Positions 41,935 to 56,788 of a stretch of 60,471 nt of DNA are shown piece after piece. The notes beneath the pieces are model-generated. The model worked only from the letters and a program-made list of their open reading frames with translations, was not told where the DNA came from and ran no database searches. The position numbers were made by a program, and so were the translations under genes. Location: NCBI GenBank assembly GCA_030652215.1, contig JAUSBC010000031.1, forward strand, positions 1 to 60,471, given 5' to 3'. The first letter of the stretch is position 1. The number at the start of each line of letters is the position of its first letter. This DNA is from Sideroxyarcus sp. (GTDB taxonomy: Bacteria; Pseudomonadota; Gammaproteobacteria; Burkholderiales; Gallionellaceae).

Positions 41935-43386
41935 TTAGAAGCGATAGCTGTACAGCAATTGGTAGTTGGTCTGAGACATCTTCGAAGTCACGCCGGTGTT
42001 GGGATTTGTCGCCGATACTTCCGGCACAATCGTCACAGACATATCGAAGCTGGATGCAGCGTTGAACATATATCCGCCACCGAGGGTGTACTGATCCTTC
42101 ACGATAGCCGGGAACAACGCATTAAGGTAAGCATCCGGAACCGGGTTGCCTGAAGTCTGCAGACCAGCACGCAAAGTCAACTCTTGGGTTGCCTTGTACG
42201 CCGCCCCCAGCATGATTACATCTTGGTCCTTCCAGTTTTGATACAACGTCGCATCCAATGTTGTACCAGCAAAGCCGGCTGCAAGCGGGTTGGCTTGTGT
42301 GCCATCAGCAACGAAGGTCATCTTAAAATCCTTCATCACGGCCTTCCAGCCGATTCGCTTGTAATCGGCAACGACCAGCAACTGGTCATTCGCCTGGTAC
42401 GCGACGCCCATACCGTAGGTTTCCGGCCATTGGAAGTTTTTGACAGATATCTTGCCAGTCACCGGAATAGTCATCGCAGTGTATGTGCCGCTTGCAGCAC
42501 CTCCACCAAGCATGCCGTCATCCAAATTCGCATTGAAACTGACCTTCGCACCGTCGGCTTCCAGGTCACTCAAGGAAGTTTTTGAATGGTATGTACCGCC
42601 GATGGTTACCTGAGAATTGAGTTTATAGGTGAAGCCAATCTTTGCCGCAAAGCCGTTGCCTTTTGCTTTTCCTGAGAATTTATCGCCATTCGAAAAATCG
42701 AAATAGCCCCAATTCACCGGGTTGGCACCGTTGATGAACCCAGTACCGACCGCACCTCCAAATGCCGTCATCATCGTATTGCCTACGCTACCTAGAGTTT
42801 GAGAGCCGCCAAAGCTTCCGGCCATATCAAGAAACTGGGCTCCAGGCATCACCATCTTCAAATCCATGCTGGCCCAAACGAAATCGACCGAGCCCCCAAC
42901 CGCCAGTTGCTCATTCACATCGTATGCCAATGGAACGAGTGCACGTCCTACGCCAACCTCGGAGCGAACTTCGTTTCCGCTTCCCGCGCTCATGAAAGAG
43001 TTGCTTCCGTATTCTGTACCCATACCGCCTTGGGCAAACACACCAAAGCCGTAGGCCATCGGTCCATCCTTGCGCAAGTAACCCAAGGCTGGCATGTAAT
43101 ACGCGTCGCCGCTGGAGTCGGCAGTAGCGCCACCTGCCTCCGACTTCACTTTCGGCCCCATCACGCCAACAGCCACATCCAGGCGGCTGCCATTTGGCAT
43201 CAGTCCAATCGTCGCGGGGTTGTTCATCATGGCGGCAGAGCCATTGTCATACGCCATGGACGCTCCGCCCATCGCTGTGGAGACTGGGCCGTAGCCCTCC
43301 ATGTTCATGCCATTTGTAGCATAGGCGAATGGCGATGCCGCCATGCCCAGTGTAATTATCGAAGCTGCGATCTTATTGATTCTCAT
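41935..43386 (-). CDS. FadL/OmpP1-type outer-membrane transport protein
   Basis: 483 residues with a signal peptide (IITLGMAASPFAYA). The mature start NGMNMEGYGPVSTAMGGASMAYD and the MNNPATIG motif are typical of the FadL hatch; the C-terminus YSYRF ends in Phe, as for beta-barrel proteins. FadL-type channels admit hydrophobic compounds. Its position between dsrE/tusA and soxYZ suggests import of a hydrophobic sulfur substrate (elemental sulfur, polysulfane), but this is inference. A GGGAGAG ribosome site lies before the ATG. Confidence 0.88.
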   Translation of the reverse strand: MRINKIAASIITLGMAASPFAYATNGMNMEGYGPVSTAMGGASMAYDNGSAAMMNNPATIGLMPNGSRLDVAVGVMGPKVKSEAGGATADSSGDAYYMPALGYLRKDGPMAYGFGVFAQGGMGTEYGSNSFMSAGSGNEVRSEVGVGRALVPLAYDVNEQLAVGGSVDFVWASMDLKMVMPGAQFLDMAGSFGGSQTLGSVGNTMMTAFGGAVGTGFINGANPVNWGYFDFSNGDKFSGKAKGNGFAAKIGFTYKLNSQVTIGGTYHSKTSLSDLEADGAKVSFNANLDDGMLGGGAASGTYTAMTIPVTGKISVKNFQWPETYGMGVAYQANDQLLVVADYKRIGWKAVMKDFKMTFVADGTQANPLAAGFAGTTLDATLYQNWKDQDVIMLGAAYKATQELTLRAGLQTSGNPVPDAYLNALFPAIVKDQYTLGGGYMFNAASSFDMSVTIVPEVSATNPNTGVTSKMSQTNYQLLYSYRF

Positions 43387-43469: not shown

Positions 43470-43940
43470 TTATACGAACAGACAGATGTCGGTGTCCCCG
43501 GCGAAGCCCATGAATGTTGCGGCGCCACCGTATTCAACCTGGTCGATGAACTCGCTCTTGTCGAACTCGAACAGATCGACAGTCATCTGGCAGGCGACGA
43601 ATTTCACGTCGGCTTCCAGGCACAGGTCGCGCAACTCTTCCAGAGAGGCGACGCCGTGTTTTTTGAGTTTCTGCTTCATCATCATGGTTGCCATGGATTC
43701 CATGCCGGGCAACATCTGCACCATGACCGGCATGGGAATCGGCATCGGCATCGCGGGGTTGGCCAACGGGCTGATCATCACGTTGGACAGATCCTTGCGC
43801 AGCAGTTGCAGGCCGTAGAAGGTGAAGAACACTTGAACGTCGTAGCCCAGCGCAGCAGCGGTGGATGCCAGAATGAACGGCGGATACGCCATATCCAGCG
43901 TTCCCTTGGTGGCGATGATCGCCATTTTCTTGTTAGCCAT
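43470..43940 (-). CDS. DsrE/DsrF-like (DsrE2-type) sulfur carrier protein
   Basis: 156 residues. MAIIATKGTLDMAYPPFILASTAAALGYDVQVFFTFYGL (shown in pieces here: start, AAALGYDVQVFF) is the DsrE/F fold; the middle carries MPMPIPMPVMVQMLPGM, a Met/Pro-rich segment of the DsrE2 type. Conserved Cys residues are in LRDLCLEA and FVACQMTVDLF; the second is the probable persulfide carrier. DsrE2 proteins exchange sulfane sulfur with TusA, which is encoded 37 bases upstream. AAGGGG precedes the ATG. Confidence 0.88.
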   Translation of the reverse strand: MANKKMAIIATKGTLDMAYPPFILASTAAALGYDVQVFFTFYGLQLLRKDLSNVMISPLANPAMPMPIPMPVMVQMLPGMESMATMMMKQKLKKHGVASLEELRDLCLEADVKFVACQMTVDLFEFDKSEFIDQVEYGGAATFMGFAGDTDICLFV

Positions 43941-43977: not shown

Positions 43978-44205
43978 TTACTTCTTCTTCATGTAGAACA
44001 CGAATTCGCCATTGACTTCTTCCTGGGCCAGCAGCGGGTTACCAGTCTGCTCGGCGAAAGCGGCCATATCCTTTACGGAGCCGGTGTCGGTCGAAATGAC
44101 CTTGAGTACCTGGCCGCTGGTCATGTCGTTCAAAGACTTTTTGGTCTTCACGATAGGCAGGGGGCAGGACAGGCCGCGAGCGTTCAATTCTTTATCGAAA
44201 TTCAT
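43978..44205 (-). CDS. tusA: TusA-like sulfur carrier
   Basis: 75 residues. The CPxP motif (GLSCPLPIVKTKKSL) with the persulfide Cys14 is intact, followed by VLKVISTDTGSVKDMAAFA and the FVFYMKKK end. In sulfur oxidisers TusA passes sulfane sulfur from DsrE-type proteins to Dsr or Hdr-like oxidation systems in the cytoplasm. GTAGGAG lies upstream. It is first in the tusA-dsrE unit, under the composite operator at 44302-44346. Confidence 0.94.
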   Translation of the reverse strand: MNFDKELNARGLSCPLPIVKTKKSLNDMTSGQVLKVISTDTGSVKDMAAFAEQTGNPLLAQEEVNGEFVFYMKKK

Positions 44206-44277
44206 TGTTTTCTTCTCCTACGAGTTAGTTAGAACTGTTTCTGAAAAAAGTGCGTTACCGCACAAAACTTGAGTAGC

Positions 44278-44283
44278 ATTATA
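44278..44283 (-). promoter_or_regulatory. Candidate -10 box of tusA
   Basis: A perfect TATAAT on the minus strand, about 73 bases before the tusA ATG. The sequence 17 bases further upstream (GACGCT) is a poor -35, as expected for an activator-dependent promoter. It lies 48 bases from the TAACCC dyad. Confidence 0.6.
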
Positions 44284-44301
44284 GGATTAATCTCGCCATC
44301 A

Positions 44302-44346
44302 GCGTCCATAGCCACGAAGGGGTAATAAACTAACCCATTGGGGTTA
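44302..44346 (-). promoter_or_regulatory. Composite operator of tusA (dyad plus 14-bp box)
   Basis: The dyad TAACCC-N4-GGGTTA (44331-44346) stands 15 bases upstream of the box GTGGCTATGGACGC (44302-44315, read on the minus strand). An almost identical pair lies before soxY2 at 49107-49152. The box partly overlaps the expected -35 region and the dyad is at about -60, a position usual for an activator site. Confidence 0.7.
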
Positions 44347-44400
44347 TGTGACGAAACGGGTTCATATATCCCTACTGCACCCATACGTATCATATCCTTA

Positions 44401-44435
44401 AATAAAAAAACAAACCCGGCCGAAGCAGGGTTTGT
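44401..44435 (-). terminator. Rho-independent terminator after fccB
   Basis: Stem ACAAACCC/GGGTTTGT with a 10-base loop followed on the minus strand by TTTTTTTATT, 23 bases past the fccB stop. It isolates the fccAB transcript from the tusA promoter. Confidence 0.9.
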
Positions 44436-44457
44436 TTTTCGTTTCATACTGCCTGAA

Positions 44458-45726
44458 TCAGGAAGACATCTCGGTGAGAATGTTCTTGACCCAGCTTTGG
44501 GCATACACCGCTTCCAGTTCGGACAGGTCCGGAGAGACCCCGACAGAGCCGGCTACCGGCACGATCGCGTTCTTCTCCTTGTCCACCGTATAGACGCCGG
44601 TCACGCTGACCGCTTCCTTGGCCGACAGGAAGCTGTAGCAGGTGTTGACGCCGGACATCTCGGTGAGCTCCCTGCCGTTCATCCGGGCCACGATGTTGGT
44701 GGCGCAGACCTTGGCTTCGGAGTTGGCCGAGTAGCCGGACTTGGGCATGGCACCCGCGATGGAGGAGTCGCCGATGACATGGATGTCCTTCTTCAGGGTG
44801 GATTCGAAAGTCATCGGATTGACCGGGCACCACTTGCCATCGGGACCGACCAGACCGGCCACATGGGCGATATGCCCTGCCTTCTGCGGCGGGATAATGT
44901 TGATGACGTCGCCCTTGACCTCTTCGATGCCCTCGATCAGCACGGTCATGTTCTTGTTGTCCACTTCGGTGACCTTCTTGGCCGGACGGTAGTCGATGAG
45001 ACCGTCGTAGTGCTTCTTCCAACCCTTCAGGAACAGACCCTTCTTGGAGACGATGTCCGGATTCGCATCCAGCACGATGATCTTGGAACCGGGCTTGTTC
45101 TGCTTGAGGTACATGGCGATCATGCTGGTACGCTCGTAAGGTCCGGGCGGGCAGCGGAACGGTGCCAGGGGGATGGACAGCACAACGGTGCCGCCCGGCT
45201 TCATGGCTTCGAGCTGCTTGCGCAGCAACACGGTCTGCGGACCGGCCTTCCAGGCGTGCGGCATGATTTCCGCGTCATAGCCCTTGATCTCGTCAGTACG
45301 GAACTCGATGCCGGGCGAGACGATGAGGCTGTCGTAGTTGAACACGCCCTTGCTGGTCGTCACGCTGTGCGCTGCGGCATTGATGCCGGTGACTTCCGCC
45401 TGCACCATTTTGATGCCGTGGTTGGCCGCCAGCTTGTCGTACTTGATGGTCAGCGAGGACAGGTCGGGCAGGATGCCGCCCAGATAGAGGTTGCTGAACG
45501 GGCAGGAGATGTAATGGTCGTTGCGCTCGATCAGGGTTACTTCGATGGTGGAATCCATCATGCGGATGTACTTGGCCGCAATCGTGCCGCCGTAGCCGCC
45601 GCCGATTACCACCACTTTGCGTCCGCCCTTGGGCTTGGACGTCGAGGCACAGCCTGCGAGGCCGAGCGTTGCAGCACCCGCTCCAGCGCCGAGGAGTTTC
45701 AGGAAATTTCTGCGTTCCATAGTCAT
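44458..45726 (-). CDS. fccB: FccB-like flavoprotein, sulfide dehydrogenase subunit
   Basis: 422 residues from the ATG of MTMERRNF with GGGAGAA upstream. A Tat signal (ERRNFLKLLGAGAGAATLG) ends in LAGC, which is also a possible lipobox. The FAD fold starts at KVVVIGGGYGGTIAAKYI; the redox cysteines are in HYISCPFSNLY and GVNTCYSFLS, and the C-terminal half has DIHVIGDSSIAGAMPKSGYSA (pieces). It oxidises sulfide to sulfur and passes electrons to the diheme FccA encoded directly upstream (16-base gap). Sulfide:quinone reductase is the alternative, but the leader and FccA partner favour FccB. Confidence 0.93.
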   Translation of the reverse strand: MTMERRNFLKLLGAGAGAATLGLAGCASTSKPKGGRKVVVIGGGYGGTIAAKYIRMMDSTIEVTLIERNDHYISCPFSNLYLGGILPDLSSLTIKYDKLAANHGIKMVQAEVTGINAAAHSVTTSKGVFNYDSLIVSPGIEFRTDEIKGYDAEIMPHAWKAGPQTVLLRKQLEAMKPGGTVVLSIPLAPFRCPPGPYERTSMIAMYLKQNKPGSKIIVLDANPDIVSKKGLFLKGWKKHYDGLIDYRPAKKVTEVDNKNMTVLIEGIEEVKGDVINIIPPQKAGHIAHVAGLVGPDGKWCPVNPMTFESTLKKDIHVIGDSSIAGAMPKSGYSANSEAKVCATNIVARMNGRELTEMSGVNTCYSFLSAKEAVSVTGVYTVDKEKNAIVPVAGSVGVSPDLSELEAVYAQSWVKNILTEMSS

Positions 45727-45742
45727 ATCGTTATTCTCCCTG

Positions 45743-46321
45743 TTATTTCTGGCTGGCATAGAAATGTGCAACGGCTTCCCAGTCGGCATCAGTCAGCGGC
45801 TTCACCTTCTCCGCTTTTTTGTCCGACATTTTGCGTGCGCCGCTCTGGAACTCGTTCATCTGGATTTGCAGGTACGTGAGCCACTGTCCGGCGACGATAG
45901 GAGTGTCTTCCTCGAACTCCTTGCCGTTTTCCAGATGGCAACGCTTGCAGGCGTTGTCATAGACGGTCTTGCCCTTGGCAACCAGAACAGGATCTACCGC
46001 TGTGTTCTGGGCTTGCGGCTTCTGCTTGGCAAAGAAGTCAGCCATCGCGACGATCTGTTCGTCGGAATAGCCCTTGGCCAGACGTCCCATTACGGTTGCA
46101 GGACGCTCGCCGCTCTTGAACTTCTTCATGGCGTCGATGAAAAACACCTTCGACTGGCCGGCCAGGCTGGGCATGCTCGGTCCGGCACTTGCGCCGTGAG
46201 TACCGTGGCAACCCGCACAGGCGTTGGACAGCATTGCCGCGCTGGGCGGCATCGCATACGCCACTGTCGACACGACCAGTGCACTGAGTGCCAAGGCCAT
46301 CTCACTCCATTTTATTCTCAT
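45743..46321 (-). CDS. fccA: FccA-like diheme cytochrome c
   Basis: 192 residues with a signal peptide (LSALVVSTVAYA). Two class I cytochrome domains carry CAGCH (35-39) in NACAGCHGTHGASAGPSMP and CKRCH (125-129) in YDNACKRCHLENG; distal Met residues are probably in the MPSLAGQ/VMGRLAKGYSD and MSDKKAEK segments. It accepts electrons from FccB. A GAGGAG ribosome site lies 6 bases before the ATG. It is preceded by a short tract rich in TACTRCTGTA-like words (46380-46425) of no known function. Confidence 0.92.
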   Translation of the reverse strand: MRIKWSEMALALSALVVSTVAYAMPPSAAMLSNACAGCHGTHGASAGPSMPSLAGQSKVFFIDAMKKFKSGERPATVMGRLAKGYSDEQIVAMADFFAKQKPQAQNTAVDPVLVAKGKTVYDNACKRCHLENGKEFEEDTPIVAGQWLTYLQIQMNEFQSGARKMSDKKAEKVKPLTDADWEAVAHFYASQK

Positions 46322-46436
46322 GTTTTGCTCCTCTCTCTGTGAAAAACGCTCCCTAAGCGGGCCTGTATGATCCCGCTGCTTGTACTACTGTATTGCTCTA
46401 CTGCCGTACTGCTGTACTACTTATTGTTGTCTTGTT

Positions 46437-47447
46437 TTACGGCTTAACCGCATTGAAATCGGCAGCGGCGTTATCCAGTCCGAGCGTGTAACCCAAGGAC
46501 ACTTGGTGGAAACGTCCGTCGGCATTGTCGTCGTGGATGGCAAAGCCGATGTTGTAGAGCTTGCCTGCCGCAATGGCATGGTCGCCCTTGCCGCCGGCCG
46601 CCAGCGTGCGTTCGAAAATGACCGTCCAGTGCTTGCCGCTCTTCTTGCCTTCGGCCTTGATCAGGCTCTTGCCGCCGCCCATGTGGCGCGAATCGAGCAC
46701 GTAGCCGTCGACTGCCTTGTCCTTGCTGTTGAACTGGATCAGGTCCATGAACTTGCCTTCTTTGAGCGCAGCCTCGATTTCGGCGTCGGACTTGAGCTTG
46801 TCCCATCCGCCTCGGGTATTGCCGGTCACGCTGAGCCCGGTGCGCGATTCCTTGAGGTACTTGGTGACGCCGTCGCCCCAGCCCAGTTCCTTGGCCTTGG
46901 CGTGCCCCTTGGCGCCCGCATCGTTCGCATCCGACATGCCGCGCAAGTCCTGGTGGCAGGTTGCCCAGCAACCGCCGCGATCGGCATATTCAACCTTGTT
47001 TTCATCGAACATCACGGTCAGCTTGGTATCGTTCTTGGGGTCCATCTTCTTGCCGCTGCCGGCCTTGGGCGTATCCCACTCGAAGCGCAGGTAAAGCTTG
47101 TCGCCGTCATGCGCGGCCTGCACGGTGACCGGGATGGAACCGGCCTTGCCCTTGGGCACCTCGTTGTCCAGCGGCTTGCGCTCGTTGCCCACCGGCTTGC
47201 CGGCGACGATCTTGTCGCCGATCTCCACCGCATCGGTGTCGTGGCATTTCACGCAGGCGCGCTTCTTTTCCAGGATCTGGTTGGCAGCAGAATGGTCCTT
47301 CTTGATCAGCACCCATTCCAGGCCGGACTGGCCGGGATAGAACAGCGGCACTTTGACGGCAGGCACCTTGCTCCAGTCGGGGGCCGCCAGCACGGGACCG
47401 GCGATCAGGGCGCTCATCAGGGTAACAGCGATTTTCTTCATCTTCAT
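46437..47447 (-). CDS. Periplasmic cytochrome with CxxCH and CX3CH, ethylbenzene-dehydrogenase-related heme domain
   Basis: 336 residues with a signal peptide (MSALIAGPVLAA). Heme motif 1 is CVKCH (65-69). Motif 2 is CWATCH (160-165), a CX3CH spacing, in RGGCWATCHQDLRGM. The C-terminal part (WTVIFERTLAAGG, NIGFAIHDDNADGRFHQVSLGYTLGLD) belongs to the ethylbenzene dehydrogenase-type heme-binding fold. It lies next to a NapC/NirT-type tetraheme protein, suggesting that the two pass electrons between the quinone pool and periplasmic cytochromes. The partner enzyme is unknown. Start choice: GGAG is 3 bases before the first ATG and 9 before the second. Confidence 0.82.
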   Translation of the reverse strand: MKMKKIAVTLMSALIAGPVLAAPDWSKVPAVKVPLFYPGQSGLEWVLIKKDHSAANQILEKKRACVKCHDTDAVEIGDKIVAGKPVGNERKPLDNEVPKGKAGSIPVTVQAAHDGDKLYLRFEWDTPKAGSGKKMDPKNDTKLTVMFDENKVEYADRGGCWATCHQDLRGMSDANDAGAKGHAKAKELGWGDGVTKYLKESRTGLSVTGNTRGGWDKLKSDAEIEAALKEGKFMDLIQFNSKDKAVDGYVLDSRHMGGGKSLIKAEGKKSGKHWTVIFERTLAAGGKGDHAIAAGKLYNIGFAIHDDNADGRFHQVSLGYTLGLDNAAADFNAVKP

Positions 47448-47506
47448 TGACTCCGTGTAGGTGTATTGACTGCGGAGCGGCGTGGCAGCCGCCCCGCCAT
47501 GCCGCC

Positions 47507-48148
47507 TCAGATTGCGGCCGGCGCTTCCTCTTCTTTTGGCTCCAGTTGCTGATGGACCGGCTTGTGCGCGATGCCTTTATGGCAAACGATACAAGTTATC
47601 TTGTCTTCCTGCGCTTCCTCGTGCTTGATCTGGGAACGTGATTTCTGCTTGGTCGGATCCATGGTGGCAAAATTGTGGCAGTTGCGGCATTCCTTGGAAT
47701 CCCGGCTCTCCATCCGCTCCCACACACGCTTGGCCATGGTCAGCCGGTGTGCCTCGAACTTCTCCGGCGTATCCACGATGCCGGTGATGTGGCCGATGAT
47801 GTCGCGGGCTGCAATCAGTTTCTGCAGGGACTTGTACATGTAATCGACGGGAGTTTTGCTGCTGGCCACGTGACAGTCGGCGCAATTTACGGTGGTGCCG
47901 CTGCGGTTCTTGTAGTGAACCGTCTGCTTGAGCTCTTCGTAAGGGATTGTCATTTCATGACAGGAGGTGCAGAACTCGGAGCGGTTGGTCCACTCCATGC
48001 CCATGTTTAGACCGCCCCACATGACGATGCCCAGTGCCATACCAACAACGAGCAGGAATAAAAACGAGCACTTCGGCGGGCGCTTCAGTCTCGCCCAGAT
48101 GCCTTCCTTAGGGGCGTGTTTAGCCCCGTTCTTCGATTCTTCGACCAT
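47507..48148 (-). CDS. NapC/NirT-type tetraheme cytochrome c
   Basis: 213 residues. One N-terminal membrane helix (about 30-50, CSFLFLLVVGMALGIVMWGG) anchors a periplasmic domain with four CxxCH motifs: CTSCHEM, CADCHVA, CRNCHNF and CIVCHKG. These proteins oxidise menaquinol or ubiquinol and hand electrons to periplasmic reductases, or run in reverse. A charged acidic/basic tail (QQLEPKEEEAPAA) ends the protein. A strong GAGGAAGGG precedes the ATG. It lies 59 bases upstream of the CX3CH cytochrome and begins the cytochrome-fccAB run. Confidence 0.93.
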   Translation of the reverse strand: MVEESKNGAKHAPKEGIWARLKRPPKCSFLFLLVVGMALGIVMWGGLNMGMEWTNRSEFCTSCHEMTIPYEELKQTVHYKNRSGTTVNCADCHVASSKTPVDYMYKSLQKLIAARDIIGHITGIVDTPEKFEAHRLTMAKRVWERMESRDSKECRNCHNFATMDPTKQKSRSQIKHEEAQEDKITCIVCHKGIAHKPVHQQLEPKEEEAPAAI

Positions 48149-48196
48149 CTCTTCCCTTCCTCTATATATTTATTATGTACAGCTTATTTTTGCAGC

Positions 48197-48232
48197 CAGG
48201 TAAAACTAAAGCCCGTCCTTTTCAGAGGCGGG
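48197..48232 (-). terminator. Terminator after soxZ2
   Basis: GCCCGTC/GGCGGGC stem (one G-U pair) with a 9-base loop, followed on the minus strand by TTTAGTTTTA. It lies about 20 bases past the soxZ2 stop and ends the second soxYZ unit. Confidence 0.7.
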
Positions 48233-48252
48233 CCCAGTACTGAAGTGTAAGG

Positions 48253-48564
48253 TCAGCCAACCTCCACTTCGTCAAACCTCTTGTCGCCGCGGTTATCCAC
48301 CCACGAGAGCGAAACCTTGTCTCCGGCCTTGCCTCCCTTGATGCGAAATACAAGATAGGGATTCTTGGACACGGATGTGCCGAATTCTCCATCCAGCACG
48401 ACTTTTCCGTTGTGTTCCACCTTGAATTCGGTGATGTACCAGGCCGGCACGATATTGCCCGTCTCGTCTTTGCGGCGGCCGTTTTCCATTTCGTGCTGCA
48501 TCAGTGCGCGGACTTCGGTAACCCCGTCCTTGAGGGATGCGCGCATCTTGGTCGGATTAGCCAT
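48253..48564 (-). CDS. soxZ: SoxZ (copy 2)
   Basis: 103 residues, clearly SoxZ (MRASLKDGVTEVRALMQHEMENG, PAWYITEFKVEHNGKVVLDGEFG, SVSKNPYLVFRIKGG, VSLSWVDNRGDKRFDEVE). It differs from copy 1 at many positions, so the duplication is old or one copy was acquired. Its ATG overlaps the soxY2 stop (TGATG), which ensures a balanced heterodimer. Confidence 0.95.
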   Translation of the reverse strand: MANPTKMRASLKDGVTEVRALMQHEMENGRRKDETGNIVPAWYITEFKVEHNGKVVLDGEFGTSVSKNPYLVFRIKGGKAGDKVSLSWVDNRGDKRFDEVEVG

Positions 48565-49046
48565 CAGCAGCCTCCCGCAGTAACTTTGACTTCGGTGGAT
48601 GCGCGGTAAAACTTGCCGTCGGCCTTGACCAGAACGATCACGGCAGAGGTCTGCGCCATCTTGATGCGTGCAGTAATGAAACCTTCCAGCCCTTCGGAAA
48701 TGTTAAAACTGGCCGCGAGAATGGTTGGATTCTTTTCCACGAGTATGGAAATCTGCTGCGTGCGCGGAAGCGAGCTTTCGACCGTGACCGGCACCGTTGC
48801 GCCGTTTTCGGCGATGTCCGGCGCGGTTAGTTTGATGAGCGCGCTATCGACAGGGGTGATTCCGCCAAGCGCGTCCAATGCTTCGCTCAGTGTCTTGGCC
48901 TCGAATGCCGCCTTGTTCGTGGCAGCCCAGGCAGCGCCCGGAACCAGGCCCAGTAGAGTGAAAAGGGCCAACAAACCGAGGCTGCCACTCTCTTTGAGCG
49001 CCTGGCGGCGTCCCATATCTACCGAACTGAAATTGCGTCCATGCAT
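48564..49046 (-). CDS. soxY: SoxY (copy 2) ending in GGC
   Basis: 160 residues with a Tat signal (GRRQALKESGSLGLLALFTLLG). The body follows copy 1 (DSALIKLTAPDIAENGATVPVTV, ISILVEKNPTILAASFN, KMAQTSAVIVLVKADGKFY), but the C-terminus is KVTAGGC and stops there, without the two Gly that follow the carrier Cys in canonical SoxY. The Cys itself is kept. The stop is read directly in the sequence (GGC TGC TGA). GGAAGGG precedes the ATG. It is controlled by the composite operator at 49107-49152. Confidence 0.94.
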   Translation of the reverse strand: MHGRNFSSVDMGRRQALKESGSLGLLALFTLLGLVPGAAWAATNKAAFEAKTLSEALDALGGITPVDSALIKLTAPDIAENGATVPVTVESSLPRTQQISILVEKNPTILAASFNISEGLEGFITARIKMAQTSAVIVLVKADGKFYRASTEVKVTAGGC

Positions 49047-49075
49047 CTAATACCCTTCCAAAAATGGATACTACA

Positions 49076-49081
49076 TTTGTA
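49076..49081 (-). promoter_or_regulatory. Candidate -10 box of soxY2
   Basis: TACAAA on the minus strand about 30 bases before the ATG, preceded by GAGATCAAATCC, which resembles the GAGATTAATCC before the tusA -10. It matches the consensus less well than the tusA box. Confidence 0.4.
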
Positions 49082-49106
49082 GGGATTTGATCTCACGCTC
49101 CGTCTC

Positions 49107-49152
49107 GCGTCCATAACCACCAAGAGTGGACCGAAATAACCCTAAAGGGTTA
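49107..49152 (-). promoter_or_regulatory. Composite operator of soxY2 (dyad plus 14-bp box)
   Basis: The dyad TAACCC-N4-GGGTTA (49137-49152) is followed 16 bases downstream by GTGGTTATGGACGC (49107-49120, minus strand), 13 of 14 bases identical to the tusA box. It is the only other place in the window where both parts occur together. Confidence 0.7.
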
Positions 49153-49203: not shown

Positions 49204-50787
49204 TTAAGTCACCACGCGCACGAGACCTTTTTGCGCTCCGGTGCGCCGCCGATGGAATCTGGAAGACAGCTCTTCCCACTCGATAATCAGCGTACCGCCC
49301 GTAATTTCGTGCTGTTTCTCCCAATTGGACAACAGGTCGAGGCAAGCATGGTCGATATAGTCCAGATGCTCGAAGTGGATATGCACCTCAGCACCGGGCC
49401 GGATTTCTTCCAGCGCAGCCGCAAGCTTCGGCAAGCGGATCAGCGTGGCTGCGCCTTTAAGATGGAGCTCGACCCGATTACGCACGAAATCCTCGTTCCA
49501 GTGAATTTCCAGATGCGAAAAAGCCTGCAACAGCTTGAGTATCGACAACCCCAATCCGATCAGCACGCCTTCCAACAAGTTGGTGGCGACAACCATAACG
49601 ATGGTGATCAGATAGATCGCCACTTCGCTCTTGCCGAATTTGAGCAAACCGGGAAGGGCCTTGGGATAAGCCAGCTTGTAGCCGGTAAACACCAGCACCG
49701 CCGCCAGGCTGGCCACGGGAATGTAACTCAGCGTGAACGGCAGCACGGCCGCGAACAACAGCAGCCAGGCACCGTGCAGCACGGTGGAAGCCCGCGTCAC
49801 CCCGCCCGCTTCCACGTTGGCTGTAGAACGCACGATGACGCCGGTCATCGGCAGCGCACCCAGTATTCCGCACAGCATGTTGCCCACGCCCTGCGCTGCC
49901 AGTTCGTTGTCGTATTTGGTGCGCGGCCCCTGGTGCAACTGGTCCACCGCACTCGCGCTCAGTAGCGTCTCTGCACTGGCGATAAAGGCCACGGAAACCG
50001 CGGAGGTCAGGATGGCCGGATCGAATGCGCCGCGCAGATTTTCCAGTGTGGGATATTGAATGGCTTTCCAGATGTTGTTGATGTCGTCCGGGTTGGCCAG
50101 CAGATCTGGAATGTATTTGATCTTCAATTCCATGACGGCCGCAACGATCACCGCCACGACCACGCCCAGCAATGGCCCCGGCAGCATTTTCAGACGTTTG
50201 GGGGCAAACATGCTCCACAGCACGATGATGGCGATGGTCAGCAGACCGATGAAAAATGCCTGCAGCGAGGTTCCGCCCGAGGTGAACGTATCCAGCAGTG
50301 CCGGCTCCATGCCGAGGAAGTTCTGAATGCCGGAACCGATCGGTTTCTTGTCGATCATGACGTGGAACTGCGATGCCAGGATCAGCACTCCGATACCCGC
50401 CAGCATGCCGTGAATGACGGCAGGCGATACGGCGCGGAACCATTGCCCCAGTTTCATCAGCCCCGCCGCCAGTTGCATCAGACCCGCCAGCAGCACGATC
50501 ACGCCCAGCATCCCTACACCGTAATGCTGCACCAGTTGCCACACCAGCACGGTAAGACCTGCGGCAGGACCGCTTACCTGCAACGGCGAGCCGGCGATCA
50601 GTCCGACCACCAGACCGCCGACAATGCCGGTGATCAGCCCCGCCATCGGCGACACACCCGAGGCGATCGCGACGCCCATGCACAGCGGTAATGCCACCAG
50701 AAACACAACTACAGAAGCCAGTGCGTCCTTGCCTATCGTTGCCCGAAACCCTTGTGCTGCCCTGCTGCCCTCAACCTTGCGCATCAT
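49204..50787 (-). CDS. SulP-family anion permease with STAS domain (1)
   Basis: 527 residues. The SulP core starts with ASVVVFLVALPLCMGVAIASGVSP and has GLITGIVGGLVVGLIAGSP, the SASAVDQLHQG amphipathic region and about 10-12 helices. The C-terminal STAS domain (about 430-510) contains EVHIHFEHLDYIDHACLDLL. The LPLCMGVAIASG start resembles bicarbonate- or sulfate-type SulP proteins more than the other two SulP proteins here do. The substrate is not determined. GAAGG precedes the ATG. It is the last gene of the soe-transporter run. Confidence 0.92.
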   Translation of the reverse strand: MMRKVEGSRAAQGFRATIGKDALASVVVFLVALPLCMGVAIASGVSPMAGLITGIVGGLVVGLIAGSPLQVSGPAAGLTVLVWQLVQHYGVGMLGVIVLLAGLMQLAAGLMKLGQWFRAVSPAVIHGMLAGIGVLILASQFHVMIDKKPIGSGIQNFLGMEPALLDTFTSGGTSLQAFFIGLLTIAIIVLWSMFAPKRLKMLPGPLLGVVVAVIVAAVMELKIKYIPDLLANPDDINNIWKAIQYPTLENLRGAFDPAILTSAVSVAFIASAETLLSASAVDQLHQGPRTKYDNELAAQGVGNMLCGILGALPMTGVIVRSTANVEAGGVTRASTVLHGAWLLLFAAVLPFTLSYIPVASLAAVLVFTGYKLAYPKALPGLLKFGKSEVAIYLITIVMVVATNLLEGVLIGLGLSILKLLQAFSHLEIHWNEDFVRNRVELHLKGAATLIRLPKLAAALEEIRPGAEVHIHFEHLDYIDHACLDLLSNWEKQHEITGGTLIIEWEELSSRFHRRRTGAQKGLVRVVT

Positions 50788-50811
50788 GTATTTGCCTTCA
50801 ATAGTTCGTTC

Positions 50812-52962
50812 TTATAACCAGATCCTGACCCCGTCGTCGTCGCCGATGCTTGGTTTCAGCAGACGGCGTTTTGCGTCCGGTTTCACCTTGAGCACCTCGG
50901 CGTAAATCTCTTCCAGCGCCTTTTCCTCATCCATGAAGAAATTCTCTTCGCCGATGTATTTCAGCAGTCCGGAATGTCGCATGACATCCAACACCTGCTT
51001 CTTCAACCCGCTGAACACCACGCGGATTCCGCTGGAACGCAAGCGTTCCACCACGTGATGGATAACCTCGTCGCCTGATGCATCGAGCTGGTTGATGCCG
51101 TCCGCCACGATCAGCAAGTGTTTGGCCTGCGGATTGTTGGCCACCGCCTCCAGCACAGTGTCCTCGAAGTACGGCACGTTGGCGAAATACAGCGAACCGT
51201 CGTAACGCATGGCAATGATGTTTTCGCTGACCGGCAGGTTGTGCACCTTGACGTCGCGCAGCGAGCCGTCAGGATGACGACCCAGGATGGCGACGCGCGG
51301 TTTCATGGTCCGATACAGGTAAAGAATGATTGCCAGTCCGGCGCCGACCATGATGCCGTTGTCCAGATGCGGCGCGAACGCCAGCGTGGCAACGAAGGTC
51401 ACGATGGAGGCAATACCATCATGCTTGTGCGTATGCCAGGCGTGCGCGATGGCCTTGAAGTTCACCAGGCCGATCACCGCCATCATGATCACCGCGGCCA
51501 GCACCGCTTGCGGCAGGTGGTACAGCAGCGGCGTGAGGAACAGCAGCGTGACCAGCACAATGAGTCCGGCGAACACGTTGGACAAGCCGGTGACTGCGCC
51601 CGAGTTGAGATTCACGGCCGAGCGCGAGAACGAGCCGCTCACCGGAAACGACTGGCTCAGACTGCCGACGATGTTGGAGATGCCCTGGCCAAGCAGTTCC
51701 TGGTTGGGGTCGATGCGCTGCTTGGTCTTCGCGGCCATGGCCTTGGCGATGGAGATCGCCTCCATGAAACCCACCAGCGAGATCACCAGCGCGCTTGTGA
51801 GCAGCGACATCATGGTCTCCCAGCTCATCTTCGGCAGACCGATGCCGGGCAGGCCGGAAGGGATACTGCCCACCACCTCACCGCCGCCGACCAGCTTTAA
51901 TTCACCTTTGTTCACTTTCTTGATGCGCCAGCGATAGCCGTCGGATTGTTCGCCCTGTGGCACCTGACCGGTCAGATAGAGTCTGGCCGGTTGCGTGTCT
52001 TTCGCCGGAACCTGCTCGAAGATAAACTTGCGCAGCGAACGTGCGGCCTTGCGGTTCTCGCCTTCCAAGTGCTCGATCTCCAGCTTGATCAGCTCCATCT
52101 CGTATCTCAGCGCCGCGATATGCTGACCGCTGCCCTCCTGCGCCTTTTGCAGTTGTTTGAGTTCGGCCGATTTGGCGGTGAGCACGCCGTTTAGTTCTTC
52201 TATCCTGACCTCGCCGCGCGAAAAATCGTTGGCGAGATTCTTGACCTCGGCATCCGCAATCTCATCGATCATACCCTTGCTGTTGTGCTCGAAACCGATG
52301 GCAAAACTGGCGACGGTGGTGACCGCGACTGCGATCAGCACGCCGGGCAATTTGGGCGCGAATTTCTTCAACCCCCACATGATGGCAAACGCCGACACGC
52401 CCATGATCAGGGTAGGCAAGTGCGTCTCACCGATCTGTAGCAGCACTCCCCATATATCGTTGATGAAATGCTCGCTGCGCCCCATGGACACACCGAACAG
52501 TTTGTTGAGTTGGGACAGGCCGATGATGATGGCGGCAGCGTTGGTAAAACCGACAATGACCGGGTGCGACAGGAAGTTCACCACCACGCCGAGTTTGAAG
52601 ATACCCAGACCCAACTGGATCAGGCCGACCATCAGCGCCAGCAGAATCGCCAGTGCAACGAATTGTTCGGAACCGGTGGCCGCTAGCGGCGCCAGCGCGG
52701 AAGCGGTCAGCAACGAAGCAACCGCGACCGGGCCGGTGGCAAGCTGTGCCGACGAACCCCACATCGCGGCAATAATGCCCGGCAGGAAAGCCGCATACAA
52801 ACCGTAATAGGCAGGCAGGCCAGCCAGTTGCGCGTAAGCCATGGATTGCGGGATGAGCACCAATGCGACGGTGATGCCCGCGATGAGGTCGGTCCGGACG
52901 TTCGCGCCGTTCAGCGGCCACCAGGACAGGAAAGGGAAAAAACGTGCGAGACGGCTATTCAT
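50812..52962 (-). CDS. SulP-family anion permease with coiled-coil insertion and STAS domain (2)
   Basis: 716 residues, about 130-150 longer than usual. The SulP core is normal up to residue 225 (VALVLIPQSMAYAQLAGLPAYYGLYAAF in pieces, TGPVAVASLLTA) and resumes at about 365 (GLPGIGLPKMSWETM). Between them, residues 226-362 form a hydrophilic insertion: an amphipathic coiled coil (IRIEELNGVLTAKSAELKQ-like, YEMELIKLEIEHLEGENRK) and a small beta unit (RLYLTGQVPQGEQSDGYRW). The C-terminal STAS domain ends at about 690. CGGAG precedes the ATG. It is probably a sulfate or bicarbonate-type transporter with an extra loop domain whose role is unknown. Confidence 0.9.
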   Translation of the reverse strand: MNSRLARFFPFLSWWPLNGANVRTDLIAGITVALVLIPQSMAYAQLAGLPAYYGLYAAFLPGIIAAMWGSSAQLATGPVAVASLLTASALAPLAATGSEQFVALAILLALMVGLIQLGLGIFKLGVVVNFLSHPVIVGFTNAAAIIIGLSQLNKLFGVSMGRSEHFINDIWGVLLQIGETHLPTLIMGVSAFAIMWGLKKFAPKLPGVLIAVAVTTVASFAIGFEHNSKGMIDEIADAEVKNLANDFSRGEVRIEELNGVLTAKSAELKQLQKAQEGSGQHIAALRYEMELIKLEIEHLEGENRKAARSLRKFIFEQVPAKDTQPARLYLTGQVPQGEQSDGYRWRIKKVNKGELKLVGGGEVVGSIPSGLPGIGLPKMSWETMMSLLTSALVISLVGFMEAISIAKAMAAKTKQRIDPNQELLGQGISNIVGSLSQSFPVSGSFSRSAVNLNSGAVTGLSNVFAGLIVLVTLLFLTPLLYHLPQAVLAAVIMMAVIGLVNFKAIAHAWHTHKHDGIASIVTFVATLAFAPHLDNGIMVGAGLAIILYLYRTMKPRVAILGRHPDGSLRDVKVHNLPVSENIIAMRYDGSLYFANVPYFEDTVLEAVANNPQAKHLLIVADGINQLDASGDEVIHHVVERLRSSGIRVVFSGLKKQVLDVMRHSGLLKYIGEENFFMDEEKALEEIYAEVLKVKPDAKRRLLKPSIGDDDGVRIWL

Positions 52963-53000
52963 ACTGGCTCCGATTATAGATTGCAGGAATCATGCGTTCA

Positions 53001-54944
53001 TCAGAAAACCAGGTTCAGCATGATCATGAGCACAGTGATGAACAGTACTGTCATGATCCCGCCGGCCCGCATGTAATCGGACACGCGGTATCCGCCCGGC
53101 CCCATCAGCAGGGCATTGACCTGGTGGGTCGGCAGGAAGAAGGAATTGGAGGTCGCCAGCGCCACCGTCAGCGCGAAAACCGCCGGATTCGCGCCCACGC
53201 CGATGGCGATATTCACCGCCAGCGGCACCAGCAGCACCGTCGCGCCCACGTTCGACATCACCAGTGTAAAGAACGTCGCCAATATCACGATAGTCAATTG
53301 GATCACCCACACCGGTGCCCAGCCCAAGACGGAGAGGGTCTGTTCGGCGATCCATTTCGCCGTGCCGCTGGTCTCGACAGCCAGGCCCAGCGGAATCAGA
53401 CTCGCCAGCAGGAACACCGACTTCCAGCTCACCGCGCGGTAAGCTTCATCGATGCTGAGCACGCGCAGCAACACCATGCCGATGGCACCGGTCATCAAAG
53501 CGATAGACAGCGTGATGTTGGTAAACAGGATCAAGGTGAGAGTGAAGGCAAAACAGCCGAGCGCGGCTGTCACCTTGTGTGGACGCAACTCCTCACGCGG
53601 AAATTCAGTGGTGATGACGACAAAGTCCCGGTCCTTTTGCAGATGCGCCAGCGACTGCCAACTGGTATGCACCACCAGCGCATCGCCGGATTGAAATGGC
53701 AGATCGCGCACACCGTCGCCTTCGCGCAGCGTTTTGCCGCTGCGATGGATGGCCATCAGCGACACACCGTATTTCTTGCGCATCCAGAGGCCGCGCGCGC
53801 TCTTGCCGATTAGCCCGGAACGCGGTGGGATGACGATCTCGGCGATGCCGGATTTCTCCGCCGACAATTGCTCGGCGAACGCTTCAAGTTGCTCGCGCAG
53901 TTGCAAACCTTTGTTCGCCGCGAATTCGCGCAAGCGCTCAGGCGCACCCATGATACCCAGCACGCTGCCTTCGGTGATCAGGATATCGCGTGCCGGTCCG
54001 ATCCGCAGATCGTCGGTGCCGCGCATGATGGCGACCACGCGCAAATGGTTTGGTTGTTCGATATCGTTGATCGCTTGCCCGATCAAGGTACTACCCGACG
54101 GTACCAGCACTTCATAGACTGCGTAGTCAAGACCGTAAAGGTTGCGAAAATATTCCATCGCATCTGCACCGCTGGTAACGTTCTCTACCGATCTGTTCGG
54201 CAACACAAAACGGCCCGCCAATACGAAGTAGGCAATGCCGGAAGCCAGCAGCGCCAGACCGATGGGGGTGACGGTAAACAGGGACCATGTCTGCATCTGC
54301 TGCTCGGGCGGCAAACCTTTGTTGGAGGCCAGGATCAGGTCGTTGAGCAAGATCAGCGGACTGGAGCCGACCATGGTGATGGTGCCGCCGAGGATCGCGC
54401 AGAATCCCATGGGCATCAGCAGGCGCGACATCGGCAGCCCGGTTCGCGCGGAAACGCGACCTACCACCGGCAGGAACAACGCAGCGGCACCGACGTTCTG
54501 CATGAAGCTGGAGATGAAACCGACGGTGCTGGAGATGGCGGGAATGATGCGCGCTTCGGTGCGCCCGGCGATGCGGATGATGAAACTGGCCACCATGTTC
54601 ATCAGGCCGGTCTTGTCCAGCCCCGCCCCAACGATCATCACAGCGATAATGGAGATCACGGCGTTGCCAGAGAAGCCGCGAAACAGATCCCGCCCCACAA
54701 CCAAAGAGTGCGCCAGACCAAGATGCACGCTGAAATAACTGATCAGCCCCAGGAGCACCATGATGCTGATCGCGGCCACATCGACCCCGACCACCTCGAA
54801 GGCGAACAGGAATACGGTCAGCAGCAGCAGGTTGAGGACAACTGCGATCTCACGGTTCGGCGCGAACAGCAGTGCGCTCACGCCGACCAACAGAAAGATG
54901 AATGCAGCAACGATGGTTCTGGCTTGGATGGTTTCGGCACTCAT
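53001..54944 (-). CDS. SLC13/DASS-family permease with two RCK_C domains
   Basis: 647 residues. Two halves of membrane helices (start FIFLLVGVSALLFAPNREIAVVLNLL in part; SSTVGFISSFMQNVGAAALFLPVVGRVSARTG) flank a cytoplasmic pair of RCK_C/TrkA_C domains at about 205-400 (EVLVPSGSTLIGQAINDI, EIVIPPRSGLIGKSARGLWMRK). The C-terminal half has TLVMSNVGATVLLVPLAVNI and SNSFFLPTHQVNALLMGPGGY, typical of sulfate/dicarboxylate carriers. In this operon it is a likely sulfate or sulfite exporter or importer. GAAGGGG precedes the ATG. Confidence 0.93.
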   Translation of the reverse strand: MSAETIQARTIVAAFIFLLVGVSALLFAPNREIAVVLNLLLLTVFLFAFEVVGVDVAAISIMVLLGLISYFSVHLGLAHSLVVGRDLFRGFSGNAVISIIAVMIVGAGLDKTGLMNMVASFIIRIAGRTEARIIPAISSTVGFISSFMQNVGAAALFLPVVGRVSARTGLPMSRLLMPMGFCAILGGTITMVGSSPLILLNDLILASNKGLPPEQQMQTWSLFTVTPIGLALLASGIAYFVLAGRFVLPNRSVENVTSGADAMEYFRNLYGLDYAVYEVLVPSGSTLIGQAINDIEQPNHLRVVAIMRGTDDLRIGPARDILITEGSVLGIMGAPERLREFAANKGLQLREQLEAFAEQLSAEKSGIAEIVIPPRSGLIGKSARGLWMRKKYGVSLMAIHRSGKTLREGDGVRDLPFQSGDALVVHTSWQSLAHLQKDRDFVVITTEFPREELRPHKVTAALGCFAFTLTLILFTNITLSIALMTGAIGMVLLRVLSIDEAYRAVSWKSVFLLASLIPLGLAVETSGTAKWIAEQTLSVLGWAPVWVIQLTIVILATFFTLVMSNVGATVLLVPLAVNIAIGVGANPAVFALTVALATSNSFFLPTHQVNALLMGPGGYRVSDYMRAGGIMTVLFITVLMIMLNLVF

Positions 54945-55000
54945 AAAACCCCTTCTTCATCGATACCGCAGTAAAGAAATGCGCTATTTGAACGAGCCGA

Positions 55001-56788
55001 TCATGAAGTGCGCGGTTCCCCATCCGGTAGTTTGGCATGACATTCCGAAAAAATGCGAGCCGTGCAATTGCGGCATATCTCGCTATCGAGTGTGGCATAG
55101 ATCGGCTTGATCCAGTTCGACATAGTCGGAAAGAAGCCGCCTGCACCGATGTCGTCCAGTTTGTCAGACTTGCGCAGGAATTTGTATATCTCGTCTTTGC
55201 AGCGGTAGAAATACAGCCCCCCACCCATCTTGCGGCGGCGGCGAGCCTCCTGCGCCAGCATTTCGGCCCCGGCCACATCGACGAAGCTGATGCCGCGCGC
55301 GATAATCAGCACGGTTTTCTTTTGCGGCTCGATCTCGTCTATCTTCTGCAGGCTGGTCTGCACATGATCCACCGCGCCGAAGAATATCGCACCGTTGATG
55401 CGCACCATGCTTAATTGCGGGCATTGCGGATGATCTTCAGCACCCACAAAGTGATAGGCGCCCTCCTCCTTCGCCGGCACCACCGGCACGATGCCGGGAC
55501 GCGAGACGCGGAACAGATAGATGGTGAGCGAGAGCAGAATGCCGAAGAAGATGCCCTTCTCCAGATCGACCAGCGTACCCAGCAGGGTTACCCACAGCAC
55601 AACCGTTTCGGAACGGCTGGTTTTCCAGATACTGGCGATATGGTGGAAGTCGATCAGGCCCCATGCCACGAGGAACAAAATGCCCGCCATCGCCGCCGTC
55701 GGCAGGTAGGAAGCCAGCGGCGCAACCAGCAGCAGTACCAGCACCAGGAATAGCGAGGCATACACCGTCGCCATCGGCGTTTTCGCACCCGCAGCGTAAT
55801 TCACTCCGCTGCGGTTGAACGAGCCGCACGAGGCGTAGCTGGAGAAAAAACTGCCAACCAGGTTGGACAGGCCCTGACCGATGAACTCCTGGTTGCCGTC
55901 GATGCGCTGTTCCGACCTCACCGCGATGGAGCGCGAGATGGAGACCGCCTCGGTCAGCGCCAGCATGGTGACGACCAGTGCCGGAAACAATACCTTGTGG
56001 ATGGTTGCGTAGGAAAAATCCGGCAGCGACAGCGGCGGCAGGTGCGCGGGCAAAGCCCCTACGGTTTTGATCAGCGTGGTCTCCACGCCAAGCTGAAGAT
56101 TAAGCAGATAGGCAATCACGCTGCCGATCACCATGGCCACAATCATGTACGGCAGCTTGGGGATGTAGATCTTGGCCAGAATGCCCGTGGCCAACGTGAC
56201 CGCGCCCACCAGCGTGACCCAGGGATTGATGTTGCCGAACTGTTCGATGAAGCGCTCGATCACGATATGAAAGTGTGCGCCGCGTTCGATGGCGATGCCG
56301 AAGAAGTTCTTCACCTGGCTGGCCGCGATGAGCAGCGCCGCGCCCGCCGTGAATCCGATCACCACCGTGTGCGAGATGAAATTGACCAGCACGCCCATGC
56401 GCGCCAAGCCCAGGATCAACTGGAACAAGCCCACCAGAAAAGTCAGCGTAAGCACCATGCTGATGAATTGCGGCGAACCCGGATCGGCCAGCGGGCTCAT
56501 GGCGGCGAATACGGCGATGGAAATGGCGGTGGTCGGACCCGAGACCAGATGCCAGCTCGAACCGAACAGAGCGGCGATGATGGCGGGCACCATGGCCGCA
56601 TACAGGCCGTATTCCGGCGGCATCCCGGCGATGGTGGCGAAAGCCACGCCCTGCGGCAGTACGATCAAGGCACCGGTTATGCCCGCGATCAAATCGGCAC
56701 GTGTGGATTGTTTGTCCACCAGGTGTTTCCACTGCAAGAAAGGAAACAGACGGTTCAGCCAGTAATTACGCGAGTGTGTGGTTTTCAA
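55001..56788 (-). CDS. SulP-family anion permease with STAS domain and Cys-rich tail (3)
   Basis: 595 residues from a TTG start 10 bases after the soeC stop; no ATG or GTG lies nearer in frame. SulP core (ALIVLPQGVAFATIAGMPPEYG, SGPTTAISIAVFAAMSPLA), then a STAS domain at about 460-560 (MVRINGAIFFGAVDHVQ, ISFVDVAGAEMLAQEARRR). After it comes a tail with CRNCTARIFSEC and no similar segment in the other two SulP proteins. The CxxC...C arrangement could bind a metal or sense redox state. Its place directly behind soeABC suggests export of the sulfate produced, or import of sulfite. Confidence 0.9.
   Translation of the reverse strand: MKTTHSRNYWLNRLFPFLQWKHLVDKQSTRADLIAGITGALIVLPQGVAFATIAGMPPEYGLYAAMVPAIIAALFGSSWHLVSGPTTAISIAVFAAMSPLADPGSPQFISMVLTLTFLVGLFQLILGLARMGVLVNFISHTVVIGFTAGAALLIAASQVKNFFGIAIERGAHFHIVIERFIEQFGNINPWVTLVGAVTLATGILAKIYIPKLPYMIVAMVIGSVIAYLLNLQLGVETTLIKTVGALPAHLPPLSLPDFSYATIHKVLFPALVVTMLALTEAVSISRSIAVRSEQRIDGNQEFIGQGLSNLVGSFFSSYASCGSFNRSGVNYAAGAKTPMATVYASLFLVLVLLLVAPLASYLPTAAMAGILFLVAWGLIDFHHIASIWKTSRSETVVLWVTLLGTLVDLEKGIFFGILLSLTIYLFRVSRPGIVPVVPAKEEGAYHFVGAEDHPQCPQLSMVRINGAIFFGAVDHVQTSLQKIDEIEPQKKTVLIIARGISFVDVAGAEMLAQEARRRRKMGGGLYFYRCKDEIYKFLRKSDKLDDIGAGGFFPTMSNWIKPIYATLDSEICRNCTARIFSECHAKLPDGEPRTS

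Follow-up and report, generated by a model that had tools for sequence, protein, structure and literature searches.

A tandem-repeat element upstream of tusA-dsrE2 and soxY2Z2 in Sideroxyarcus: predicted operator of a NarL-type two-component system in sulfur oxidation

Why do two promoters in one stretch of Sideroxyarcus DNA, those of tusA-dsrE2 and of soxY2Z2, carry what appears to be the same composite element, and what would bind there? The stretch considered here (the window, 60,471 bases, contig C45) comes from a 3.64-Mb assembly of 128 contigs that is 89.85% complete. A first-pass annotation had described the element as the dyad TAACCC-N4-GGGTTA followed by a different motif, GTGGyTATGGACGC, and by GAGATnAATCC, and had proposed a dedicated regulator for the carrier-protein branch of sulfur metabolism. 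Judging from sequence comparison, the two elements are, with a probability that we put at about 0.83, operator-promoter units of a sulfur-oxidation regulon under a so far undescribed NarL-type two-component system; that they form a shared regulatory element with one regulator behind it, as had been proposed, is very probable.

Both elements lie on the minus strand, in the same orientation. The dyads at 44331-44346 (tusA) and 49137-49152 (soxY2) are followed, after spacers of 15 and 16 bp respectively, by GTGGCTATGGACGC at 44302-44315 and GTGGTTATGGACGC at 49107-49120, just as had been described. GTGGyTATGGACGC and TAACCC-N4-GGGTTA each have two exact matches in the whole assembly, which are the two elements themselves; the motif is thus not scattered over the genome. 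Scored singly in the window with up to three mismatches, the halves occur at chance level (10 matches with 9.35 expected and 11 with 10.96 expected), so the evidence has to come from the combination of the halves and from conservation. Orthologous promoters of other species do carry the composite: G071 and G281 have it before both tusA and soxY2, and G024 before soxY2. Neither of the refuting outcomes that the first-pass annotation had named, lack of conservation or random scatter, was thus observed.

Two profiles were used in the searches. The first, R1, was trained from sequence only on seven tusA and soxY2 sites, with no regulator-locus site among them, and was run on 158 genomes of the family with a threshold expectation value (E) of 0.1 or less. 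The second, R2, had 34 training sites (20 from sulfur promoters and 14 from the regulator loci of 13 genomes). In the assembly itself R2 yields three full sites (E 5.8e-10, 6.6e-8 and 8.7e-8), with the next match no better than E 0.72; all three belong to its training set, and therefore only the drop-off behind them is informative.

A 34-site alignment changes the picture of the element itself. The dyad and the second part prove to be one 15-bp unit, ACCC-N4-(G/T)GGnTAT, repeated head-to-tail, with copy 1 of the form ACCC-N4-GGGTTAT and copy 2 of the form ACCC-N4-TGGnTAT; the second part is no separate motif but a degenerate version of the first. A profile made from copy 1 alone finds its best match outside that copy at the same position in all 34 sites, immediately ahead of rGACrC, scoring a mean of 9.6 on copy 2 as against -9.6 on shuffled sequence, and the correlation of the two copies is 0.78 when read directly and -0.09 when one is reversed. 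The period from copy to copy is 22 bp at 15 sites, 23 bp at nine and 25 bp at ten, and copy 2 is followed directly by a -35-like hexamer, TGGACG or TAGACA. Where downstream bases were analysed (95 sites), TATAAT stands at one shared position in 49, TTAAT or CTAAT ending 1-2 bases closer in 29 and elsewhere in one, while 16 have none of these. The comparison thus shows the predicted operator to be a direct repeat of this unit, with about two helical turns from copy to copy and a weak -35 adjoining copy 2. The 15-bp unit is near-palindromic, and its ACCC-N4-GGGT would fit the dimer-bound dyad operators of NarL/FixJ type.

At the tusA promoter of the window, copy 1 (ACCCCAATGGGTTAG, 44330-44344, minus strand like all the features that follow) forms the core of the dyad and is kept in relatives. 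Copy 2 (CCCCTTCGTGGCTAT, 44308-44322), placed by the alignment, lies 22 bp past it and abuts the -35-like hexamer TGGACG at 44303-44308, which shares the last base of copy 2 and belongs to a TrGACr conserved in the 34-site alignment. The -10, TATAAT at 44278-44283, stands at the distance found identically in those 49 of the 95 sites. If +1 is 7 bp past the -10, the two copies would be centred near -66 and -44. At soxY2, copy 1 (49136-49150) is again the core of its dyad and kept in relatives, copy 2 (49113-49127) aligns 23 bp past copy 1, and the hexamer TGGACG occupies 49108-49113. The third shared part that had been suggested, GAGATnAATCC, does not hold up: the stretch varies between species at tusA, and at soxY2 several relatives conserve TATCAAAT instead, which is probably the -10 of their soxY2 promoter. 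Its counterpart in the window on comparison with these relatives, GATCAAAT at 49085-49092, is probably the soxY2 -10 here (TCAAAT, with a 17-bp spacer).

Two other kinds of site were considered for this layout. The two parts near -66 and -44 had suggested the recognition and activation sites of a LysR-type regulator, an idea dropped once both parts were seen to be the same unit; tandem copies of one unit do not call for such an arrangement. CRP/FNR-type boxes have a 5-4-5 geometry that would fit the element, but the positions and the neighbouring gene do not. The tusA leader also holds, at 44244-44263, a small hairpin, GTGCG-GTAA-CGCAC, with a run of six T behind it, which is terminator- or attenuator-like; the GTGCG/CGCAC stem is present at 13 of 74 tusA sites, G314 keeps a similar one although it lacks the operator, and the folding of the leader is not significant (z-score -1.08).

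R1 has a match in 94 of the 158 family genomes, usually one to three per genome, with 136 hits listed. The surrounding DNA was examined at 104 of these (all 98 with E of 6.5e-4 or less and six weaker ones). Four run off the contig; each of the other 100 has the start of a reference-set gene within 450 bp, in a test that recognises at that distance only the genes of the reference set, which were the sulfur genes of the window together with regulator, kinase, sqr and soeABC. The target is tusA at 74 sites, soxY at 17, a cytochrome c gene at five (followed by fccB in four of them), sqr at two and soeA at two. The predicted regulon would accordingly take in tusA-dsrE2, soxYZ, cytochrome c-fccB, soeABC and sqr, and is not a carrier-protein branch. 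The soxYZAXB operon of the window, which lies downstream of tusA-dsrE2 and is co-directional with it, has no site of its own there, as had been pointed out; the absence does not extend to all relatives, G421 having a site directly before its soxYZAX genes, 260 bp from soxY1.

In related families, f37 among them, sites stand before tusA-dsrE2, in the interval between soe and kinase genes, and before a DUF6967 gene divergent to dsrA (the dsrA call being a sulfite-reductase-type gene taken as dsrA), which takes the operator still further from a carrier-protein branch. The DUF6967 gene, preceded by the operator at L345:6557-6769 and in L343, begins a small cluster found in dsr-bearing sulfur oxidisers.

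The candidate regulator was found beside the weakest R1 hits. G429 and G420 each have a site in the interval from a response-regulator gene to sqr, and in G429 a kinase gene stands before both. The regulator (P0001) has a receiver domain (PF00072) and a GerE domain (PF00196) above gathering score, as does its ortholog in the window's own genome; the kinase (P0002) and the own-genome kinase (L193) both have HisKA_3 (PF07730) and HATPase_c (PF02518), preceded by a GAF-like N-terminal part that scores 21.0 against the GAF_2 gathering score of 28.6 in L193 and 46.3, above it, in L345. The kinase and regulator genes are adjacent and overlap. In the own genome the order kinase-regulator-sqr is found on contig C88, with a regulator 88% identical to P0001, and the third site of the genome lies there upstream of the kinase and points to genes for a YfcE-type phosphoesterase and a rhodanese. 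The same genome has, at G000:C126:39450-40094, another copy of the regulator, an orphan with 77% identity to P0001, so that both copies of the proposed regulator lie outside the window, where the first-pass annotation had supposed the regulator gene to be. The closest orthologs with named records are mostly from Sideroxydans, Sideroxyarcus, Gallionella, Ferriphaselus, Gallionellaceae or Nitrosomonadales.

One column of the recognition helix, which we take to correspond to NarL V189, has Q in 22 of 24 site-associated regulators and in the own orphan copy, and L in the other two (L313, L343) and in the 17 distant ones. It is therefore not a clean marker.

How closely do operator and regulator keep together? 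The regulator gene shares a contig with 63 of the 136 listed R1 hits, and 13 of these are within 2 kb of it, four at 7-22 bp after the regulator and nine at 1318-1416 bp before it. The 42 weak R1 hits contain all 13, where about 0.1 would be expected near the regulator; this weak range was chosen after inspection and leaves out G357 (E 2.3e-4, not near the regulator). Most of the remaining 50 same-contig hits are 8-50 kb from the regulator, which is therefore loosely linked to the target genes. Across the 158 genomes, with regulator presence called at E of 1e-80 or less, 86 have both regulator and motif, eight the motif only, nine the regulator only and 55 neither (Fisher 3e-24). With R2, eight of the nine that had the regulator only, G221 among them, do prove to have a site, which brings the regulator-positive genomes with a site by R1 or R2 to 94 of 95; in 25 genomes chosen for R2, it finds a site in 12 of 13 with the regulator and in none of 12 without.

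Such co-occurrence could reflect the presence of the sulfur genes as such, and the genomes that keep DsrE2 serve as a control for this. There were 97 with a DsrE2 match at E of 1e-50 or less, reduced to 96 by dropping G435 (a paralogue, 60%). Among these 96, R1 at E of 0.01 or less gives a site in 76 of the 85 regulator-positive genomes and 4 of the 11 regulator-negative ones, and at 0.1 or less in 81 of 85 and 5 of 11; among those at least 90% complete (with our own, at 89.85%, counted as 90) the figures are 54 of 61 and 0 of 3. Neither R2 nor inspection by eye found an operator upstream of tusA in G314, G339, G325, G331, G335, G387 and G396, which have DsrE2 and lack the regulator. These seven were preselected as R1-negative at E of 0.01 or less, and the informative part is therefore the intact gene without an operator, joined in three of them (G314, G339 and G335) by a TATAAT that has been kept upstream of tusA.

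The same association is seen in named genomes, where loci with an orthologous regulator (66% identity or more) show an R2 hit at a fixed place in 60 of 67 cases, at a threshold of E 0.5 or less that admits some partial and weak hits. At 56 loci the hit is 1250-1600 bp upstream of the regulator, just before the kinase, and at 20 between the regulator and the next gene, some having both; the seven without a hit at either place include L284, which is cut short. Among 12 loci of more distant regulators there was one R2 hit, in L328, before a tusA-dsrE2 near soeABC and a kinase-regulator pair. In a wider survey of 399 genomes of the order, R2 has hits in 26 at E of 0.05 or less, and all 18 genomes whose regulator reaches 59% identity are among these 26. 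Nine of the 18 are of this family, and several of them supplied R2 training sites; the other nine, from two other families, supplied none (one of their sites is weak, E 0.027). G264, whose regulator is 56% identical, has two strong sites; G479, G458, G502 and G505 have more distant regulators and weak or partial sites; and of the 46 genomes whose regulator is more distant, the majority lack a site. Co-occurrence and gene order show that the predicted operator travels with one NarL-type response regulator and its kinase, mostly in the order kinase-regulator-sqr, with sites directly ahead of the kinase gene, in the regulator-sqr interval, or at both places.

A number of observations weigh against the regulon as we read it. 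Autoregulation is not shown by the site in front of the kinase, which is oriented away from that gene. The orphan regulator on C126 could share the sites; no kinase, sqr or site was found near it in the 14 kb examined. NarL operators are built of heptamers, and their half-site differs from the tandem ACCC-N4-KGGnTAT. The genomes being related, the Fisher values overstate independence, and the two groups were searched unequally, R2 having been run on just 12 of the 63 family genomes that lack the regulator (all negative, G325 included). R2 training holds 14 regulator-locus sites, and at least eight of the 67 named loci come from training genomes. G307, 73% complete, has the regulator and no site by either profile. 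Some of the positives are weak (G321 with R1 at E 0.095, G447 and G448 with R2 at E 0.008-0.0095). R1 hits occur in eight of the 63 regulator-negative genomes, strong ones in G334, G340, G358, G382 and G436 and weak ones in G313, G325 and G333; the five with strong sites are only 60-83% complete, so that assembly gaps may explain why no regulator gene was found in them. In the wider survey, a strong site is present in G197 (family f37, 96% complete) with no regulator at E of 1e-60 or less, G021 and G485 have weak sites with no regulator found, and one weak hit, L231, turned up among 37 control loci of other families (25 soxY and 12 distant-regulator loci).

In the mechanism that we propose, reduced sulfur compounds would lead the kinase to phosphorylate the regulator, two dimers of which would occupy the tandem copies and contact polymerase at the weak -35, so that tusA-dsrE2, soxYZ, fcc, soe and sqr would be switched on together. 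The weakest step is the signal input, which might act through the near-invariant cysteines of the GAF domain, possibly as a sulfane-sulfur or redox switch: C104 and C124 of the kinase's GAF-like part are each conserved in 77 of 78 sequences, which, by analogy only with the cysteine-pair sensing of the ArsR-type proteins SoxR and sHdrR, suggests a sulfane-sulfur or thiol-redox input. In Sideroxydans lithotrophicus ES-1, the sox and dsr genes go up on thiosulfate, according to PMC8788666, which places dsr at Slit_1675-1686 and sox at Slit_1696-1700. The closed genome G418 has nine predicted genes between dsrA and soxB and by this spacing is probably ES-1. Upstream of its sox genes (L341:14231-15535) is also a sigma-70-family gene of extracytoplasmic-function (ECF) size with Sigma70_r2 and r4_2 domains, next to a small gene that is anti-sigma-like by eye; this could possibly be a second input to sox. 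We can offer only tentatively, and regard as rather doubtful, the larger proposition that a cytoplasmic NarX/NarL-like system, whose GAF kinase would sense sulfane sulfur or thiol redox by its one conserved Cys pair, is the master switch by which Gallionellaceae add sulfur oxidation to a life based on iron, ancestral order-wide, with operators at tusA-dsrE2, sox, fcc, sqr, soe and near dsr.

The regulator might instead be the right one and act mainly as a repressor, with copy 2 over the -35 blocking polymerase until sulfur is present. Copy 2 does abut the -35-like hexamer with a one-base overlap, and the sulfur-oxidation regulators known from Hyphomicrobium are repressors, as stated in PMC12423496; the -35, however, is poor by comparison with TTGACA and has a long spacer to a good -10, which would be typical of activator-dependent promoters, and the tandem copies reach about -73, as with activators. 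The regulator-less genomes have lost the sites and kept tusA, though a pure repressor would allow the same. On balance we consider repression unlikely.

Less likely again is that another regulator (TtrS/TtrR-like, LysR- or ArsR-type) was co-inherited with the sulfur genes and the NarL-type system is a bystander. In some genomes of the same genus a TtrS/TtrR-like pair lies between fccB-yeeE-type and soxY1 genes, which puts both candidates in the same neighbourhood, and in Hyphomicrobium the ArsR-type SoxR and sHdrR control sox genes (PMC12423496). The motif, on the other hand, tracks the NarL-type gene even among the DsrE2-keeping genomes, being absent in 7 of the 11 without it, and stands at fixed distances from that gene. 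As a general regulator the TtrSR-like system was rejected as too rare: close TtrS orthologues (at least 41% identity) are in 9 of the 158 genomes, against 94 of 158 with the motif, TtrS being the one rival type that was counted genome-wide.

Were the element the promoter of an alternative sigma factor and not an operator at all, the conserved TATrGACrC block with its -10 at a near-fixed distance would look much as it does, and there is the sigma-factor gene near the G418 sox genes; but conservation is as strong in the outer copy near -66 as in the inner one, both being the same unit, the -10 boxes are sigma-70-like (the 49 TATAAT of 95), and copy spacings of 22, 23 and 25 bp are unlike a sigma contact, so that we give this explanation very little chance. 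Chance likeness or an ancestral promoter duplication, for which it could be said that two promoters only 4.8 kb apart might be mutual copies, is next to inconceivable, being already refuted by the phylogenetic footprinting, in which the element is conserved in dozens of species before different genes and in other families as well.

The NarL-type system that we favour thus belongs to a known kind, and this particular one is apparently undescribed. It resembles NarX/NarQ-NarL/NarP in that the kinase core best matches the NarQ and NarX models and the regulator those of NarL and NarP, with a GerE-type DNA-binding domain, and the closest sequence of solved structure to the regulator is NarL (1a04). 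It differs in falling below the equivalog cut-offs (regulator: NarL 179.4 bits against a cut-off of 250, NarP 153.2 against 343; kinase: NarQ 150.5 against 553, NarX 115.7 against 578, where the kinase core alone matches), in the conserved Cys pair of the kinase's GAF-like domain, and in having sulfur genes as targets. Like SoxR/sHdrR of Hyphomicrobium denitrificans, which sense through a conserved Cys pair, it would control sulfur-oxidation genes, but those are one-component ArsR repressors responsive to sulfane sulfur (PMC12423496), as opposed to a two-component NarL-type system. RsrS-RsrR of Acidithiobacillus caldus (PMC5093147) is likewise a two-component control of sulfur-compound oxidation with a repeat operator upstream of the promoter; it differs in being of EnvZ-OmpR type, with a 19-bp operator, AACACCTGTTACACCTGTT, and the tetH cluster as its target. 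TtrS-TtrR comes near in another way, in that some of the same clusters also contain a TtrSR-like pair whose regulator is of GerE type, but its sensor kinase has a phosphonate-binding-type domain, and too few genomes of the family have the pair for it to account for the motif. At L136:9955-12343, and also in L058, L061, L109 and L132, a TtrS/TtrR-like system stands beside sox and yeeE-type (Pfam Sulf_transp) genes; these species may thereby have an additional input from tetrathionate or thiosulfate.

In agreement with the first-pass annotation, which knew of no motif of this form, no published description of the motif or the system was found in the literature searched, which included the accessible parts of PMC8788666, PMC10734462, PMC5093147 and PMC12423496, with most subscription journals, preprints and supplements lying outside it. 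Substrate sensing in sulfur oxidisers is, to go by published abstracts, poorly known beyond ArsR repressors and a few Acidithiobacillus systems. What the comparison yields is a predicted regulon, a binding site predicted to the base, and natural joint losses of regulator and operator; if the reading is true, the control of sulfur use in iron-oxidising bacteria becomes directly testable, the choice between iron and sulfur in particular in ES-1, the probable closed and culturable model.

As for the genes that the two promoters of the window would serve, all are on the minus strand. The first target, tusA (43978-44205), a conserved target by the comparison above, encodes a sulfur carrier of 75 amino acids (Pfam TusA) and is followed by dsrE2 (43470-43940; NCBIfam SulfCarrDsrE2, above cut-off) as second gene of the operon; third behind them is a gene for a FadL/TodX-type outer-membrane protein (41935-43386; Pfam Toluene_X), similar to one at the same place in many relatives. 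The thiosulfate-oxidation carrier protein SoxY2 is encoded at 48564-49046 (TIGR04488 above cut-off; Pfam SoxY) and soxZ2 lies at 48253-48564 (TIGR04490 above cut-off). Behind them, at 44458-48148, come genes for a NapC/NirT cytochrome, an EB_dh-type cytochrome, a cytochrome that is c4-like by eye, and fccB, the sulfide dehydrogenase flavoprotein (three of the four with Pfam support). The co-directional order of the genes 3' of soxYZ2 is the same in the relatives L058, L132 and L136, and these three cytochrome genes and fccB probably share the soxY2 transcript.

Between the soxY2 cluster and soeABC, at 49204-56788, the window has four transporter genes: that at 49204 tested as a sulfate permease and that at 53001 as CitMHS-type with TrkA_C, the other two being sulfate-permease-like by eye. 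Far from the sulfur genes, a block on the minus strand at 2388-25945 resembles a type VI secretion cluster; two of its genes were tested and both fit, with a VipB tail sheath at 5762-7297 and IcmF at 10527-14351.

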